Shown here: one piece after another, positions 15,605-63,929 of the stretch
How positions within the stretch are numbered: position 1 is the stretch's first letter
Layout: every line of letters begins with the position of its first letter
Source: Heliocidaris erythrogramma
Lineage: Eukaryota; Echinodermata; Echinoidea; Camarodonta; Echinometridae
Direction of reading: 5' to 3'
Assembly (NCBI GenBank): GCA_025617745.1
Contig: CM046853.1
Location: forward strand, 14,069,323 to 14,133,322
DNA: 64,000 nt
The notes under the pieces: model-generated
Seen by the model: only the letters and a program-made list of their open reading frames with translations
What the model was told of the DNA's origin: nothing
Databases searched by the model: none
Translations under genes and position numbers: made by a program

Positions 15605-18600
15605 TCAGCATGCACAGCCTTCTGTCTTTCCCTTGCTGTCATTATCAAGTTTGATCTGGCTGGGGAAATCTTGGTACGTTGAATCATCTGGTTCTTGTGC
15701 AAGGGCGTTCTTGGCTATTGTTTGGAAGGCCTGCTCCACGTTGATGCTCTCTTTTGCACTTGTCTCAAAGTATGGGATGCAGTTTTTGCTATCACACCAG
15801 CTTTGAGCTCTCTTTGCAGATACCTGATGAACATGACATAGAAAACAGAAAGCACAATAGCAATACCTGGCTCTAAGAAAGGGACAGTGAAAGGGCATTG
15901 GTTGTACAGCACATGCTCAGAATTGCATGCTCCACAGTCAATCCCCTATGTTAATCAAATTCCTGGAATAGACAATGTAACTAACCCTAACATGAAACCC
16001 AAATCTAAAGTTACTTTCAAACAACTACAAAATTTCTTTGTCATGATCATTGCAAATTTTCAAATAATAAACACTGTATACAAATAGCTCTTTAGAGTTA
16101 AAGGTAATCCCTTTGCACTTATCCATTTTTGCATAAATCTTACAGAAAGACAGATTACTTTAAGAAAGCATTCTATCAAAAATTCATCTGGTAATTTGTG
16201 ATAAAAATTTAGAACTAAAGGATGAGTACAAGCAGATAATGAACTTAATAAATAGCACATCTCACCAACATCTTATGACCATTTTTTACAGATTACACAT
16301 GCAGGATTTTTTTTTTCTATACTCTTTAAAGATGTAACCATATAAAGTTCAGTATGAAGTGTTTTTCCATGAGGCAGATCTATAGAAAGACGTCACAGAT
16401 ATGCCATATACTTACAATTCTGTTATCCAAGTCAACCTTGTTGCCTAGTACGACAAAGGGGAAATGCTCAGGGTCTCTTGGGCTGGCCTGGATAAGGAAC
16501 TCATCTCTCCAGCTGTCTAGTGACTTGAAAGAATTGGGTGATGTGACATCAAAGACCAGTACACAGCAGTCTGCCCCCCTGTAGAAAGCCACTCCCAAGC
16601 TCTGAAACCTCTCCTGACCAGCAGTATCCCATATCTGGATTGAACAAGAATAGCAATGTACAGTAAAACTGTAAGCAATGTACAGATACTGTAAGCGCTT
16701 TGGTCGGTTACGTTGTAAGAAACAGTCAGTATCATTATCATTACAAGAGCAAACAGGTGAACAATGCTATGCCTGCACTTGTACATTCATGAATGTCTTC
16801 ATTCATTATTCTATCCCTACCACAGCAATATAAATGCTAATACCTAACATCAGTCACATCAACAAGACGGACTGCAGCCCTACAGCAGACAAATAAAGAA
16901 AGTACATCTCTGGGAATGGCTACGAATTGGTCAGTTTCAACTATGGAGTCGGTTTAGTTTGGCCATGTGACTGAATTATCACCCCATAAAAAGACACCAA
17001 TCATTTATCAATCATTTTCGCATGTTAACAACATTGAAAAATTCAAACATTTAGTGTAATAGTAAACTAATCCTTGGTATTCAGAATTATTGCCAAAATT
17101 CCTATGTAATTTTGTTACTGTCCATGTGGAATAGCTCATTTGCTATATGGGTCATCCTGTTTAACATGAAAAGTTTGCTGGAATTTACCTACATGTATAC
17201 TAAAAAGGAGAAGACTCCGAGCACTAAAAATGAGAAAGTTTACAAGGACCACATATCAATGACTACACATTACACAAGCACATTTTCAGCCTTCACAAGA
17301 CTTTGTACCCCACATGAATGTTTGATTTTATGTCTCGAGCCTCTACTGTTTCAAAGAAAGAAAGATATTAATAAATTTACCTGCATTGTAACAAATCTGT
17401 CATCAACCATGACTTCTTTTGTGAGGAAATCTGCTCCGATTGTTGCTTTGTACTGATTGCTGAACTTCTTGTTGACATATTGATTCATGAGTGACGTCTT
17501 GCCAACACTGAAAAGTTGTAAGAAACATCTCAGAATTAAGCAATACTTATTACTGTATTTACATTTTTACCTTTTCTAAATGTAGAAACTGAATTTCATT
17601 TGGTCAGAAAAAGGGTTCACTTTTACTCCAAAGTCTCTCAGTGGTGTACTGTAGACTTCAAAATTAGTTTTTCAATGACTGCTCAGAATCTCCCATTTGT
17701 CACAGATTATAGCTGGAATCCTGATTCTGGTAGAATGTTGGGAAAATTTAATATAACAGTCCAATCAATTATCATATGCTTGTACACACATTCACGATTC
17801 TAGGACAACTACCCCCTGGAAAATTCCCCCCCAGACTACCGCAGAATCCGGGGATGGTTTTCTTGGGGGGGGGGGGGGGTACTTGTCCTGGGGGGTACTT
17901 GTCCTGGGGGGTAATTGTCCTAAGGGGGTAGTTGTCGGCGGGGGGGGGGGGGGGAATTGTCCAGATACGACATTCACAATTTAAAATTTGGTATTCTTAT
18001 ACATGTTTATTGTTTCTTGTGAAAATGACATCATCCTTCTAAATAAAACATGAAATATTCTTAAAGGAGAATGAAACCCTGGGGAAAAATCAATTTTAAG
18101 GAAAAGAGAGGATAGAAAGATGCAATTTAAAAAAAGTTCCATCAAAATCGGTTACGAAATGAGAAAGCTATGGAAGTTTGAAAAGTCTCAATTTACTTTC
18201 TATGGCCATCCTCAAATTGGCAATGTTGCTTCAAAGTGACGGGTTTAGTAGTACAACTTTCCATATATTTTGTACATAAAATTTCATATTTTCCCCATTA
18301 TCTCTCAAGGTGCAGCTTGTCTCCTACATGTACTTAACTCAAGATATATCATGGGAAAATGTATTTGACACAACATATATGTTGAATTCACAAAACGACA
18401 AGCAGCATCTTGAGAGATAACAGAAAATATGAAACTTTGTGTACAAAACATATTGCGAGTTGTACTACTAAACCTGCTATTTTGAAGCAACACTGCCAAT
18501 TTGAGGATTGCCATAGAAAGTGAAATTGAGACTTATCCAACTTACATAACTTTTTCATTTCGTAACGATTTTGATGGAACTTTTTTTTAATTGCTTTTCT

Positions 18601-46799: not shown

Positions 46800-49195
46800 T
46801 ATTCTAAGGTATCCTGTACTTCCTCGCTTGTCATCGTTCCTGGGTATCTACTAAGTGCATCCGCACATCGTTTACTTCGTCCAGACCGATAAACTACTTC
46901 AATGTCAAATGCAGCCAGTTGCGCAACCCACCGTTGTTCTGTAGCTCCCAGCTTTGCCGTTCCCAGATGTGCCAGGGGATTATGGTCTGTGAAAACAATT
47001 GTGTGACCTCCAATCAGATATTCCAGGAACTTGTCTGTAACAGCCCATTTGAGCCCGAGTAACTCAAGTTTGAAACTCGAGTAGTCTGGGTAATTCCGCT
47101 CGACGTTCCTCAGTCCTCGGCTTGCGTAAGCAATTGGGTGTAATCGTCCTTCCTCGTTATGTTGCGCCAGGCAAGCCCCTAGTCCTTTCAGGGATGCATC
47201 GATCTCGACTACGAAGTCCTTGTCAAATTGTGGATACCCCAAGACTGGTGCTTTTGTCAATAATTGCTTGAGTTCCTCGAAAGATTTCCCGGCTTCTTCT
47301 GTCCAATTGAATGGATTGGCCAATCCAGTATGCCTCTTGGCCTTCTTTGAGGACTTTCGGGAGCCGCCAACAATGCAATGTAAGGGTGCTGCTATGAAGG
47401 CAAACCCTGGCACAAAACGACGGTAGTAAGATGCCAGGCCTAGAAAGGATCTTAGTTCTTCTACTGATGTTGGGGTGGGCCAGTTGATAATCTTACCTAC
47501 CTTTCCCGGATCAGCAGCGATTCCTTCTGAGGTAATGACATGTCCAAGATGATTTACCTCCTCCTGCAAGAATTTGCACTTCTTCCCTTTGAGCTTCAAG
47601 CCATAATTCTTGAGCCGTCTAAACACCTCTTGCAGCCTACTGGTGTGTTCCTCAATTGTGTCCGAAAATACAAGTATGTCATCTAGGTAGATGATAACTG
47701 CCATGTGGTTCAGGTCTCCAAATACGAGTTCCATGACACGTTGGAAGGTACTGGGACTGTTCACAAGTCCCTGGGGCATACAAAGAAATTCGAATAGTCC
47801 CCAGGGTACTCTAAAGGCCGTCTTCTCTATTCCCTTCTGCTCCATTGCGATCTGAAAATAACCATTTGCCAGGTCAAGGGAAGAGAAATACCTTGCTCCT
47901 CCTAGTGCTTCTAAGGTCTGTTCTATGCGGGGAAGTGGAAAGGAATCCCGGATGGTCCTGGCATTGAGCTGGCGATAGTCAATGGAGACGCGGAGCGAGC
48001 CGTCCTTCTTTCGCACTGGGACAACCGGACTTGCGTAAGGGCTGTGCGATCGTTGGATTATCCTCTTCTCAAGCATCTCTTGTAAGAGCCTTTTAATCTC
48101 TGGGGCTTGAGTAGGTGGAACACGTCTGTAGGGGAGGCGGATTGGTGGTCCCTCAGTGGTTCGAATTTCATGGGGGATTACGTCACAATATCCGAGGTCC
48201 ATGTCAGTCTCAGCGAACGCTTCCTTATTGTCATGAATCAGCTGAGCAATTACATCTGCATCAATTGGCTTGACATGGTTGAGCTCGACACCACTTGGTA
48301 GTTGAAATCTTCTTCCATCCCCACATTGATATTCTTTTCCTGGACCCATCTCTATCACTTTTGGTTCATAGGTACCTAGCTCAATCCCCTCTTCTGCTAC
48401 AACATCAGCTATCATGACTTGAGCCACGCCATCTCGCTCTTGTATGACGACTTCTTCTTGAACTTCAATGGCCGAGGCCAACACGGAGCCTTGTGATATC
48501 TTCATCTCTTTAGAAGACCTATTAGCAACAGTGACCTGTAGCTTGTCACCATCTACCTTCATACATCCATCATAGATGTCAAGGTTGACTTGCTCATCTC
48601 CAGGTTGGCTGGATCTTGTTGCCATGCCCACGAGGACATCACTCCCCTGGAAAAGTTCTGCATCTACCAACTTGCATTGAACCCTTCTGATAGTGAATGG
48701 CGGGACCACCTCGTCATCCCCTGACATCAGTACGGAAGATGTCTTCTTTCTCTCGGCTTGCCTCCTTGCAAGCTTGAGAGTTTCCCTGACCAGGCGCCAA
48801 GCACTCTTCTCTCTGATGCCATCCTCCCGTTCCTCTCCAACAATACTCCAAAGGGCATTAGTTCCCAAAATGATGGGGTATTGACCTCGGCGGTGAGTAC
48901 AAATTTCATCGCTTACAACCAGGAATCCCACTTGTACTTGTTTGCCCTCTACCGTCACTGGTGCACGGACATATCCAATGATTGGCACGACATTTTCCAT
49001 GACTCCAACCACTTTCACTCCTAGGCTGCTGCCATCCAGCGGGCCTAGTGCCGGTTCAAGTTTACGCTTGTAAAATGACACTGGGATTAGACTAGCTTCA
49101 GCCCCAGTATCAAGTACACATCCAACTAAGACACCAGCTATGTCAATCTCGGTCGTGGGGCTTGATTCAACGAAGTCCACTGCTGGGTGTTCCAC
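46799..49195 (-). CDS. gypsy Pol: protease, reverse transcriptase, RNase H
   Basis: A 798-residue open frame. The retropepsin motif is DTGAEASLIP at residues 29-38. The RT begins near residue 355, includes SIDYRQLNARTI, LDLANGYFQI and the catalytic YLDD at residues 503-506 (47689-47678), and is intact. RNase H follows with EIDASLKGLGACLA and FTDHNPLAHL. A tether-like DALSRYPG precedes the stop. The frame is complete for these three activities, whereas integrase downstream is broken; it would copy element RNA into cDNA. Confidence 0.93.
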   Translation of the reverse strand: MEHPAVDFVESSPTTEIDIAGVLVGCVLDTGAEASLIPVSFYKRKLEPALGPLDGSSLGVKVVGVMENVVPIIGYVRAPVTVEGKQVQVGFLVVSDEICTHRRGQYPIILGTNALWSIVGEEREDGIREKSAWRLVRETLKLARRQAERKKTSSVLMSGDDEVVPPFTIRRVQCKLVDAELFQGSDVLVGMATRSSQPGDEQVNLDIYDGCMKVDGDKLQVTVANRSSKEMKISQGSVLASAIEVQEEVVIQERDGVAQVMIADVVAEEGIELGTYEPKVIEMGPGKEYQCGDGRRFQLPSGVELNHVKPIDADVIAQLIHDNKEAFAETDMDLGYCDVIPHEIRTTEGPPIRLPYRRVPPTQAPEIKRLLQEMLEKRIIQRSHSPYASPVVPVRKKDGSLRVSIDYRQLNARTIRDSFPLPRIEQTLEALGGARYFSSLDLANGYFQIAMEQKGIEKTAFRVPWGLFEFLCMPQGLVNSPSTFQRVMELVFGDLNHMAVIIYLDDILVFSDTIEEHTSRLQEVFRRLKNYGLKLKGKKCKFLQEEVNHLGHVITSEGIAADPGKVGKIINWPTPTSVEELRSFLGLASYYRRFVPGFAFIAAPLHCIVGGSRKSSKKAKRHTGLANPFNWTEEAGKSFEELKQLLTKAPVLGYPQFDKDFVVEIDASLKGLGACLAQHNEEGRLHPIAYASRGLRNVERNYPDYSSFKLELLGLKWAVTDKFLEYLIGGHTIVFTDHNPLAHLGTAKLGATEQRWVAQLAAFDIEVVYRSGRSKRCADALSRYPGTMTSEEVQDTLE

Positions 49196-49224
49196 CGGTC
49201 CACTTGGATATATGGTTCACACAT

Positions 49225-50259
49225 TTACCTGCGTTTGAGTGTTATCATGGGTTTGCTGTTGTTGTTGTTGTTGACGACCAGCATCTGGACAATCCTTGCG
49301 ATAATCTTGTTACATCCATAACAAACAGTTGGTAGGGTGCAATCCTTCTTCAAATGGCCCTTTCTGCCACGGTTGTAACATGGCGGGTCTGACTTACGCT
49401 TGAAGGAGGGAACTGATGTTTGACGCATCGTGTTCATTGCCTGTACAACTTCCTTCAGAGTTTCTCTCAAATCTGACAACTCGCTCTTCACTGACGCGAG
49501 TGTTGGATCTTCAGGCGTTGCCTGCACTCTCATGGCCTCTACTTCACATCCTCTTACTCTTGCTCTTGGTTCAAAGTCTTCATCTTGGAACAATTCCATG
49601 ACTTCCTTTCTTAACTCTGCGAAAGACATTGCAGGCCTAGAAAGAGCAGCATGTCTGAGCTCACGCTGAATGCTGCGGTCTCTCACCCCAGTGATGAATC
49701 TCTCCTTCAACGTGTTATCCTTCAGCCTTTGAAGTGCCTCTTTCTCTCCTCTTATCACTACGCTCTCCATCCGGTCATACAATCGGGGCAGTTCCCCGCT
49801 AAACTCTGCAAGCGTCTCACTTGGCTTCTGGACAAGCATATGGAGTTGCCTGGTTAAAGCTTGAACACTCTCCTTCCGTCCAAACCTGGCTACTAATATG
49901 GCCTTCACAACACTAGACTGTTCCCCTGGCCCAAGTTCATGGCACCTCAACTCGTCCTTAGCTCCATCTGCGAGATGAGCTATCAATACACGCGTCTGCT
50001 CTCTACATGCCAACTGGTAGTACTGGCAGTACTCTTCATACTCTTCTAACCACTCATGTATGGTGGGGTCTCTGGATTTCTGAGGAAACCCGTGGAACTT
50101 AGACAGTTTCATTGAGGGCATTCCCCTAGGTGTAGCCATGTTCCTGAATGCGTCAGTTAATGCTGACACCATGTCATTCAACCCTCCGTTTGACGCAGCC
50201 CCACCAGTTGGTAGATCATCATTATCAGGATCTCGCTGTCTCCTTCTTCGATTCGACAT
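49225..50259 (-). pseudogene. gypsy Gag, damaged zinc knuckles
   Basis: 344 residues starting MSNRRRRQRDPDNDDLPTGG, with a capsid-like helical middle (KLSKFHGF, EWLEEYEEY) and a C-terminal nucleic-acid-binding part. The first knuckle reads CYNRGRKGHLKKDC, where the second Cys of CX2CX4HX4C is Arg. The second knuckle starts CYGCNK but lacks the G-H step, and its frame shifts. The continuation RKDCPDAGRQQQQ is in another frame and ends near 49210. Confidence 0.85.
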
Positions 50260-50473
50260 CCTTCTTGACTATTAAGGAACCTGCTGGTTTACATAGGAGG
50301 CAATTCTATGTTCAAAGGTATTACAATATTATATGTTTACTAAATACCCATACTCTTACAACACTATTTATGATATATTCCCTCGTTGACCCAGTCGGGG
50401 GTTTACTTCCTTGCGTCTCAACTTCTCTCCATCGATGTCGGTTCTGCACATCGATGAACTTCATAGATGAAAT

Positions 50474-60856: not shown

Positions 60857-63800
60857 TTAATCGAGGTAGGCTAGCAGATTTGGGGTTCCATTAGGGTTTG
60901 CAATCTTGCCGAAGGTTGCAGAACTGACGATCTTGTCATAAACCTCTTGAGGTGAGTACCCCTGGCCGAGCAGGACGGCTGCAATGCCTGATGGTGGAAC
61001 AAAATAGTGTAACGAAGAGTTATATGCATTTTAATTAACAAGGTATATAGTGAATGTATAATAATCAATTTCCAACAAAGACAATCAAGTATGGTTTATG
61101 ACGAAAATGGCCATGAAGTTTAAGGACTATATAGCAAGCGAAACCTCTTCTGAATGAACTGTTACTGAACTCGTTTATTTGGCGATCCTCCTTATAAGAA
61201 GAGGCTGGAACTGATAATATATTTCATTTATAAAGCGCATGTTCCTGAAATACACAGAAGAACTCAGCTAGTGTGTGGCAACACAATAATATTTAAACAA
61301 ATGGCAATATTACACCCCCCCCCCCCAAAAAAAAAAAAAAAAAAATGCTTGGATTGGTAATAATATTAATTTTGAAGATTTATTTTACAGGAAATCTAAG
61401 GGCTCACCAGCAACATGTGGGCATGCCATGCTTGTCCCGCTGTAGGTTTTGGTTCCATCGTTCGAGTCATGGGCCAGACTAGTGATGCTGGAACCTGGGG
61501 CGAAGAGCTGGACGCACCTACCATAATTGGAGAAGGACGAACGTTGATCTTGACTGTCCGAGGAACCAACAGTAATCACCTGATATGAAAAGAAAAGGCG
61601 GTGTGAAAGAATTGAGAAGGATTGAGAAGAACAACGGGAAACAAGGAAGAACTTTATTTGCATAATACACTCAGTATAACATACCTGTGTATTATAGGGG
61701 AGAAATTATTTGTAAATGAAACATAAATAAGAATGTAAGAAATAGAGGGAATTGCTGTTAAAGTGTTGATTATTATGTGAAGTATGTGGATAGGTATTCA
61801 AAGTACAAAACTTCCTACTCTAAAGGATTTGTTTAAAAAAAGGAAACAGAAGCAAACGTCTAGGAAATGGTCCCACCATTCTAAACACGGCCCCTAAACA
61901 ATTACATCCACATTCACACTACAAAATAATAAGATGGAAAGAAGACTTTCAGAACTATAACAATTAAACCTGGTAAAATACAGTAGTGCTCGGATCCTTC
62001 AGTCATGGATCTGCTAGGTCCATGCTTCCGATGATTGGATGAAAGTAATAGGTCAATGATAAGACTTGGGTCTGCATGGAAAACAATATGATAAAACAAA
62101 TCTTGATATCGACAACTTACATCAGGACTTCCAGCTGGTGATGTTAAACAGGCATCGCTATTACTATTGCCAGCGGCAGCCACCAGAACCACACCCATTT
62201 CCTTGGCCCTCTCCGCCGCTTTCATCTCGGTTGGAGCGTAGAACCCTCCATACGACATTGATGCTACCGCTGGTCTCTTCCCCTCTACGGCCAGCCAATC
62301 CAAAGCTTTTCGTATTTAGCAAGAAAAAAAGAGAAAACAATAATGATAAAATGAACTTACATCTGGACTACCCGCGGGGGATTGAGTACATGCATCTGCG
62401 TTGCTGTTCCCTGCTGACGTCACAAGGACCACGCCCATTTCTTTGGCTCTCTTTGCCGCCCTCATCTCACTGGGCGAATAGAACCCTCCGTATGACATTG
62501 ATGCCACAGTTGGTCTCTTTCCTTCAGCTGCCAGCCAATCCATTGCTGGATACAATAAATATACATGTATGCCATATTTCAAAATGAAGTTTAAAGGATC
62601 GTTACTATACACTTTAAATGTAAACTATCAGCGCGTGAAGAATAATAATTGTTCATTGGTGATGCAGTGTGAAGGCTATAGTCCTTGTAGTCCTGTAGTA
62701 ACTGCAAATTCATCTTATAAGGTGGCATAGTATGATTTTCTACATCTTCGTGTATATACTAGGTGTTACGAAAAAAAAAATCAGTGGACACTTTTGATCT
62801 TTATTATAACTCAAAAATTATACTTCGTATCAGACTAAGGTTTTTACATTGTAAAGTTGAAGGATGTAAAATTTGTTGGGAGCAAGTTTTATTACATTTC
62901 TCAGAATACTTTTCTTAAAATATTGCTCAGAATATTTAATTAGATTTTTCGCTTTTTGAAAAATCAAGGCCACAAATCTGTGTGTATTAGTAATTAATTC
63001 AGAACGCAACAATTGCCATTTTGTGTTGCAGCTTTCATTTCTGCCAACCTTTTGCTGTCCAGTGTCATTAATGATACATGACTCTTGGTTTAAAAGGTTT
63101 TTCTGGAATTTCAGCTGCAATGCACAATGGCAATTTTTTATCCTGAATTAATTACTAATACACAGAGAAAAGTGAAAAATCTAATTAAATATTCAGAGCA
63201 ATATTTTAAGAACAGTATTCAGAGAAATGTCATGAAGCTCCCAATAAATTTTACATCCTTCAACTTTACAATGTACATGATGTGAAAACCTCAGTCTGAA
63301 ATGATGTATAATTTTTTTTAATCATTAACGATAAAAAGTGTCAACTGTATTTTTAACACCTAGTACGATGTACTGCACTCTAAAGGACGCATTTCAATAT
63401 TGATATAATTGTTTATCACGCATCGCCCTTTTCCCTGGAATTTTTCACAGCATACGCTCATTTGCAACAAGGGCATGCAAGTAATTGCAAATCTGCATTA
63501 AGCTGGTCTTTTCCCCTGCATTTGATGCATAAATCAGTTTTCAGTTAAAGTCATCAATATTTTCTCAATGTAACAAGCATCATTTTCAGTTCCTTTTTAA
63601 CTGAAATTTATCACAGCATATACCCATTGCCCAACAAGTGCATGCAAGTATCGAATCTGGTCTTTCCCCCTAAATTTTGAGGCCATGTTGCATAAATCAG
63701 TTTTCAGTTATATAATGCAAGGAACATATTCAGTTACTTGCAGCAAAATAGTTCGGTATAGCTCAAGTGATTATTTTGTATGTATACCTGCGACCGATGA

Positions 63801-63929
63801 ACTGATGGCGCCAGAGCCACTGCAGCTGAGGATTCTGATACCATATAGGTTGGCTTCTCGTGCGATACCATAGGTGTTGCTACCCACCGTACCTGCGCAG
63901 TGGGTTCCATGTCCGTTACAGTCAATACC
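60857..63929 (-). CDS. Proteinase-K-like subtilase (peptidase S8), 5' part off window
   Basis: Minus-strand exons are 63929-63788, then one of two alternatives (62545-62361 or 62305-62121), then 61579-61408 and 60987-60857 (stop). Phases fit with either alternative. The first exon holds the catalytic His in [14 protein letters not shown]. The alternative exon holds the oxyanion Asn in SAGNSN or AAGNSN. The third holds the catalytic Ser in [11 protein letters not shown]. The last encodes a C-terminal helix and PNLLAYLD, without extra domains. About 209 residues are visible; the catalytic Asp, propeptide and signal peptide should lie beyond the right edge. S8A enzymes of this type are secreted or lysosomal endopeptidases. 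All visible catalytic residues are intact. Confidence 0.93.
62121..62305 (-). CDS. Subtilase alternative exon, downstream copy
   Basis: 185 nt, encoding [20 protein letters not shown] through [20 protein letters not shown]. It has the same length, phases and boundaries as the copy at 62361-62545, and 50 of 62 residues are the same. Its acceptor (AAATACGAAAAG) is weak although preceded by a T/C-rich stretch. Its donor is GTAAGT. Confidence 0.88.
62361..62545 (-). CDS. Subtilase alternative exon, upstream copy
   Basis: 185 nt, encoding [20 protein letters not shown] through [20 protein letters not shown], with acceptor TTGTATCCAG and donor GTAAGT. Only 55 bases separate it from the second copy. 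Because 185 is not a multiple of three, splicing both copies into one mRNA breaks the frame. Confidence 0.9.
62759..63363. mobile_element. 605-bp foldback MITE, TA target
   Basis: Ends CTAGGTGTTA and TAACACCTAG are perfect inverted repeats flanked by TA. The arms pair over most of their length (for example TTTACATCCTTCAACTTTAC near 63252 with its complement near 62855, and AATTAATTACTAATACACA near 63150). It lies in the intron between the His exon and the alternative exons. No ORF. Confidence 0.85.
63447..63720 (+). repeat. Local duplication of a ~165-bp segment
   Basis: CACAGCATACGCTCATTTGC (63447) and CACAGCATATACCCATTGCC (63611) begin two diverged copies, each ending ATGCATAAATCAGTTTTCAGTTA or similar. 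The pair is intronic in the subtilase gene. Confidence 0.6.

Follow-up and report, generated by a model that had tools for sequence, protein, structure and literature searches.

A probable mutually exclusive exon pair across the S1 pocket and oxyanion hole of a proteinase K-like protease gene in Heliocidaris erythrogramma

At the right end of the 64,000-nt window analysed here (C1:14069323-14133322), a minus-strand protease gene carries two adjoining exons, A and B, that very probably form a functional mutually exclusive pair, by which one secreted proteinase K-like gene would make two proteins. We infer exclusive splicing, a steric block, decay of faulty messages, and products that differ in activity or in the substrates they prefer. 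Specifically, the exon encoding the catalytic His would be spliced to either A or B, which in turn would be joined to the catalytic Ser exon, yielding two proteases 12 residues apart, with all differences in the segment that has the S1 walls, the oxyanion Asn and the S4 rim. Joining of A to B would be disfavoured by the 55-nt intron between them, which leaves little room between the A donor and any branch point, and messages that contain both exons or neither, carrying an early stop, would be removed by decay.

Gene layout and reading frames of the exon pair

The exons concerned, in window positions, are:

63788..63929, minus strand: exon with the catalytic His and the S2–S4 strand (142 nt; its last base is the first base of a codon)
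62361..62545, minus strand: putative alternative exon A, with both S1 pocket walls and the oxyanion Asn (185 nt)
62306..62360, minus strand: A–B intron (55 nt; GTAAGT donor, weak acceptor ACGAAAAG)
62121..62305, minus strand: putative alternative exon B (185 nt)
61408..61579, minus strand: exon with the catalytic Ser (starts at 61579, atatcag/GTGATT)
60857..60987, minus strand: last coding exon (terminal AYLD-stop)

The His exon, one of 66 places matched by a composed His-exon peptide in the genome search, ends at its donor (63929-63788) in GCAG/gtatac. Exon A is bordered by tatccag/CAATGG on the acceptor side and CCAGAT/gtaagt on the donor side, and exon B by cgaaaag/CTTTGG and CCTGAT/gtaagt respectively. 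The Asp motif VIDTG lies in frame starting at C1:14133660, just upstream and outside the window, and a frame reading MRFLALLSFLLTVGVTMATHFYKADVDAIDDQFIVVLK within C1:14136786-14136923, also outside it, looks by eye like a signal peptide that leads into a prodomain of I9 type. In a profile search PF00082 (Peptidase_S8) was above cut-off for both isoform segments, and this domain, the Asp/His/Ser triad motifs and AGN in both A and B are those of a proteinase K-like subtilase of family S8. The best matches among sequences of solved structures were aqualysin-1, 2b6n ('proteinase K') and VPR for the exon A form, and 2b6n, VPR and 8c4z for the exon B segment, with proteinase K 1ic6 further down in both cases. 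Aqualysin-1 (4dzt), VPR (1s2n) and proteinase K (1ic6), which we take to be microbial enzymes, are homologous to the window gene over His-to-Ser and share its His and Ser motifs and oxyanion Asn; they serve as sequence references, from which the window gene differs in having introns and a doubled exon.

The original prediction of two exons of exactly 185 nt, with common boundaries and phase and with 50 of 62 residues identical, was confirmed base for base, as were the 55 bases that separate them and the retention of the AGN oxyanion Asn in both. A and B are also identical at 135 of 185 bases, and their likeness (self-BLASTP E 2e-37) rules out chance similarity. Each begins with the second base of a codon and ends with a complete codon (phase 1 to 0), and either alone gives one open product, in frame with both neighbours, through to the stop. 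Joint inclusion of A and B meets a stop 6 codons past the junction, skipping of both leads to one after 20 codons, and retention of the 55-nt intron leaves B in frame but with a TAA inside the intron (ORF 62624-62316). Thus, all three arrangements encounter a premature stop and none gives a full protein, which bears out by computed stops the claim that the flanking exons are in frame with either copy, and that both or neither would be unproductive.

A mutually exclusive exon cluster is recognized from sequence as adjoining homologous internal exons of similar length and the same phase, whose joint inclusion and joint exclusion are unproductive, and this is what we find here, both events giving early stops. 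Homology, equal length, phase, GT–AG sites, frame incompatibility, the 55-nt intron and purifying selection (see below) together favour the mutually exclusive reading that had been predicted. An assembly artefact or haplotype copy can be dismissed, given that A–B third positions are saturated and that the 425-base stretch is found once, at 100%, in the genome searched (the window's own assembly, 1.06 Gb in 26 contigs).

Among other features of the window, the intron before exon A contains a long imperfect inverted repeat (62775-63354; its arms pair in pieces 26-72 nt long at 83-97% complementarity) that resembles a palindromic transposon. At about 44.1-52.3 kb lies an LTR retrotransposon-like element, named from its reading frames: self-comparison revealed near-identical direct repeats, one at about 44.1-46.0 kb and the other at about 50.3-52.3 kb, and between them are long minus-strand gag/pol-like frames (46802-49216 and 49228-50268). 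Self-comparison also showed open segments repeated in tandem on the plus strand at 34.2-35.0 kb, and minus-strand exons at 15608-16766 read like what we take to be a Rab7 GTPase.

Age, constraint and family context

Codons of A and B differ at 9 first, 6 second and 35 third positions (of 62 codons), with dN 0.15 and dS 1.22 by YN00; dS by NG86 is undefined, that is, saturated. We simulated divergence until 35 third-position differences had accrued, counting as matches those runs that stayed free of stops and changed no more than 12 residues. With one copy neutral and the other at omega 0.1, none of 300 simulations matched, the mean being 44 residue differences and a stop arising in 257 of the 300, so that an unconstrained copy is ruled out. 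Setting omega to 0.5 for one copy and to 0.05 for the other likewise gave no match in 300, and a value of 0.1 for both gave 49 in 300. This outcome implies that selection at the protein level has very probably acted on both A and B over a long period. In a tree built from 22 exons of the family and three microbial ones of solved structure, A and B come out as sisters (support 100/99) and the paralog L004 is the neighbour of the pair (91/84), most other forks being weak. As read from its sequence, the pair is an old tandem duplication of one exon.

The aqualysin/proteinase K-like family, best known from bacteria and fungi, has undergone a large expansion in this genome. Genome searches returned 66 Ser-exon, 63 pocket-exon (the counterpart of A and B) and 66 His-exon matches, which clustered into 66 loci, although these searches overlooked two C6 pocket exons that came to light later, so that the loci and exon counts are working numbers. 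Fifty-six loci have the order His–pocket–Ser, one has two pocket exons, three have two His exons, and the rest are His–Ser (three), pocket–Ser (two) and Ser only (one). Two pocket-exon matches occur only in the window gene among the 66 clustered loci, of which 37 were covered over the full His-to-Ser span; further copies, above all decayed ones, may exist. Genome-wide, 60 loci have His, pocket and Ser exons (near-identical copies counted), many of them clustered on C15, C16, C18, C19 and C20. The pocket exon was read in 28 paralog loci (near-identical copies L006/L007, L009/L018, L011/L012 and L029/L030 included), where the AG keeps its position in 26, the GT likewise in 26, and both do in 24; in L029 and L030 the acceptor is displaced by one base, in L018 the end is shifted, and L026 has a GC donor. 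The best identity to B of any listed paralog exon is 49%, as against 81% for A. In L017 and L026 the oxyanion motif of the pocket exon is AAMN and AASN respectively, not AAGN, and these enzymes may be altered or inactive.

Two further candidates for a doubled pocket exon were rejected. In L008 (C4:3614182-3614241 and C4:3613030-3613202), the extra copy is a partial, recent and broken tandem copy of the pocket-exon end that includes following intron sequence; partial extra Ser-exon matches were seen in this locus as well. The second match in L027 (E 0.59 and 0.086) sits in its last coding exon.

Doubling of the His exon is found in genes on C16, at 19.28 Mb and 19.18 Mb, with two intact catalytic-His exons each (L011, L012, L070):

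C16:19281757-19282616 and C16:19184716-19185558: His-exon pairs of the two paralogous genes
C16:19282616-19282469 and 19281904-19281757: the two His exons of the 19.28-Mb gene (148 nt each)

The two genes are 99.6% identical over 3163 aligned bases and, being either a recent duplication or two assembly copies of one region, were counted once. The paired His exons share 41 of 49 residues and differ at 5, 6 and 33 first, second and third codon positions, the third being saturated, and they group together in the His-exon tree (94/94; few columns, 18 of 35 inner forks open). Their joint inclusion leads to a stop within three codons of the junction, and the intron between them has 564 nt, so that sterics cannot explain their exclusion. 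Numbered by motif, they differ at 67 (the residue before GHG) and 99, among others; position 67 is placed at the S2 rim by PMC1890553. We regard them as a second, independent candidate exclusive pair. Decayed extra His-exon copies lie just upstream of the intact one in L005 (C16:37909645-37909743, with the frame broken at the His motif) and in L017 (C16:37921224-37921292, with the front part missing). Together with the C16 pair and the broken copy in L008, these indicate that exon duplication is recurrent in the family, with two intact survivors known. More tentatively, and as a prospect that we rate a little short of even, the His exon (S2–S4) and the pocket exon (S1 and oxyanion hole) may each have been doubled in an independent event, in different genes, and retained as mutually exclusive pairs, with splicing swapping subsites as modules, S1 in the window gene and the S2 side in the C16 genes.

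Active-site positions and splicing control

For numbering by proteinase K, exon residue 12 was set to position 126 (an end point of the alignment) and a gap-free extension places residue 47 at Asn161. A and B then differ at 116, 121, 127, 138, 140, 143, 146, 157, 158, 164, 168 and 169. According to PMC1890553, the S1 site of proteinase K is made up mainly of 132-135 and 158-161, its rim including 162 and its bottom end 169; in S4b, 141 lies at the bottom, and the rim is occupied by 135-136. By these S1 positions, the alternative exon holds both S1 walls in addition to the oxyanion Asn. By alignment offset, A and B differ at the S1 positions 158 (Ser in A, Ala in B) and 169 (Gln in A, Thr in B), and also at 138 and 140, which lie in the loop that follows 132-136, and at 146 (K/E). 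Most of the 12 changes are conservative (S/A, S/T, R/K, A/V, M/L), SYGG and AGN are kept in both exons, and Ser 158 is not unique to A, being present in paralogs L004 and L025 as well; for the 169 substitution studied in PMC1890553, its authors expected little effect. The differences had been described as clustering beside the oxyanion Asn and in a surface helix. The two residues before AGN and the helix do differ, but the 12 differences are spread over the whole exon, and the 164-169 loop, where the S1 pocket ends, differs too, beyond the regions then named. That the isoforms would differ in P1 preference or rate is a reasonable prediction, and on balance we lean towards a real difference between A and B in specificity or activity.

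Gaps between matches in the family, which approximate introns within a few bases, are never shorter than 219 nt among the 62 that follow the pocket exon, or than 224 nt among the 60 that precede it; the A–B intron has 55 nt. A steric block of A-to-B splicing by this intron is plausible. Some invertebrates splice introns of about 55 nt, and for this reason such a block may fail here. Candidate branch A motifs occur in the A–B intron at +9, +14 and +45 from the A donor. Exclusion is enforced, according to PMC7969005, where the branch point is less than ~50 nt from the donor, and all three motifs lie within this distance, a vertebrate threshold that may not fit this species. The acceptor of B is weak, so that B could be rarely used. 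Among human clusters of mutually exclusive exons, PMC5740500 gives 57 (9%) with such a short distance and 377 (60%) with exons not divisible by three; by these human figures, steric block plus frame incompatibility would be an ordinary combination.

The introns after A and after B have a pyrimidine-rich element in common:

62333..62351, minus strand: copy in the A–B intron, from sequence comparison (19 nt, TTTTATCATTATTGTTTTC)
62079..62096, minus strand: copy after B, at +25 to +42 past exon B (TTTTATCATATTGTTTTC)

The score of this 19-nt element, 31, was reached by none of 2000 shuffles, and among 378 comparisons of the same intron stretch across the 28 paralog loci, 374 scored 27 or less and four, between near-identical copies, at least 194. 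Since the element is shared although third positions are saturated, it may be a kept splicing signal. No common sequence was found in the upstream exon flanks of A and B (score reached by 205 of 1000 shuffles). A CAG 49 nt into the intron after B, behind the shared element, looked like a ghost acceptor, and a lost third exon at this place was considered and found unsupported, its score being reached by 20 of 300 shuffles in comparison with A and by 299 of 300 with B.

Alternative explanations, precedents and meaning

It would be surprising if only one copy were used, with the other a silent but well-preserved duplicate, recent or a lucky relic. Unused copies do arise in the family, as the decayed duplicates in L005, L017 and L008 attest, and a weak acceptor for B would suit this explanation. 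Those decayed copies, however, have visibly lost their frame or parts, unlike A and B, which are both open, both have GTAAGT donors and AG acceptors, and have changed at 35 of 62 third positions as opposed to 12 of 62 residues, an outcome that no neutral simulation (0/300) reproduced. We find it just as improbable that the exons are alternative but not strictly exclusive, with joint inclusion or skipping deliberately truncating the message, so as to make an on/off switch rather than an isoform switch. The early stops that follow from either event fit such a switch, as do reads joining mutually exclusive exons, reported for 83 (22%) of the human clusters with exons not divisible by three in PMC5740500, but a switch alone has no need for two divergent, separately constrained coding copies, and A–B joining is disfavoured by the 55-nt intron.

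Rather unlikely, though with more in its favour, is exclusive use of two functionally equivalent isoforms, whose differences would be drift and whose retention would serve expression control. This shares its splicing claim with the preferred reading, an exclusive pair with distinct products, and its probability overlaps with that of the pair. The conservative nature of most of the 12 differences, the conservation of SYGG and AGN and the small effect that the authors of PMC1890553 expect of their own 169 substitution are all consistent with equivalence; the differences at 158 and 169, S1 positions in that same source, those at 138 and 140 in the loop after 132-136 and the K/E exchange at 146 argue against it.

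Both an active-site pair of exclusive exons (COQ-2) and a change of specificity by splicing (CYP4F3) are already known from PMC7434440, whose authors call active-site splice switches rare and name few others. Helminth coq-2 exons 6a/6e are likewise two mutually exclusive internal exons at the core of an enzyme active site; substrate choice switches, and one of the two decisive substitutions replaces Ala by Ser next to the substrate (PMC7434440). That enzyme is a polyprenyltransferase, for which transcripts and removal of the exon give proof and which shows conservation across species, whereas the window gene is a protease known from sequence. Human CYP4F3 (cited in PMC7434440), in which splicing switches the substrate specificity of one gene, is a cytochrome P450. 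The exon pairs of alpha-tropomyosin and OGDH, as presented in PMC7969005, are kept exclusive by a branch point less than ~50 nt from the upstream donor; they are not in proteases and their branch points are far from the acceptor, whereas here the whole intron is 55 nt. In the parasitoid wasp, PpSerpin-1 (PMC10513286) is a protein of the protease system diversified by splicing and gene duplication, but it is an inhibitor and not a protease. Among the titles and abstract openings listed by searches of open-licence literature, none described a mutually exclusive exon pair in a protease.

Proteases are thought to diversify specificity mainly through gene duplication. If the preferred reading of A and B is true, one gene could make two enzymes that cut different proteins through the choice of an S1 pocket exon, and splicing would be a direct route to new protease specificity, with the His exon doubled instead in another gene of the family.
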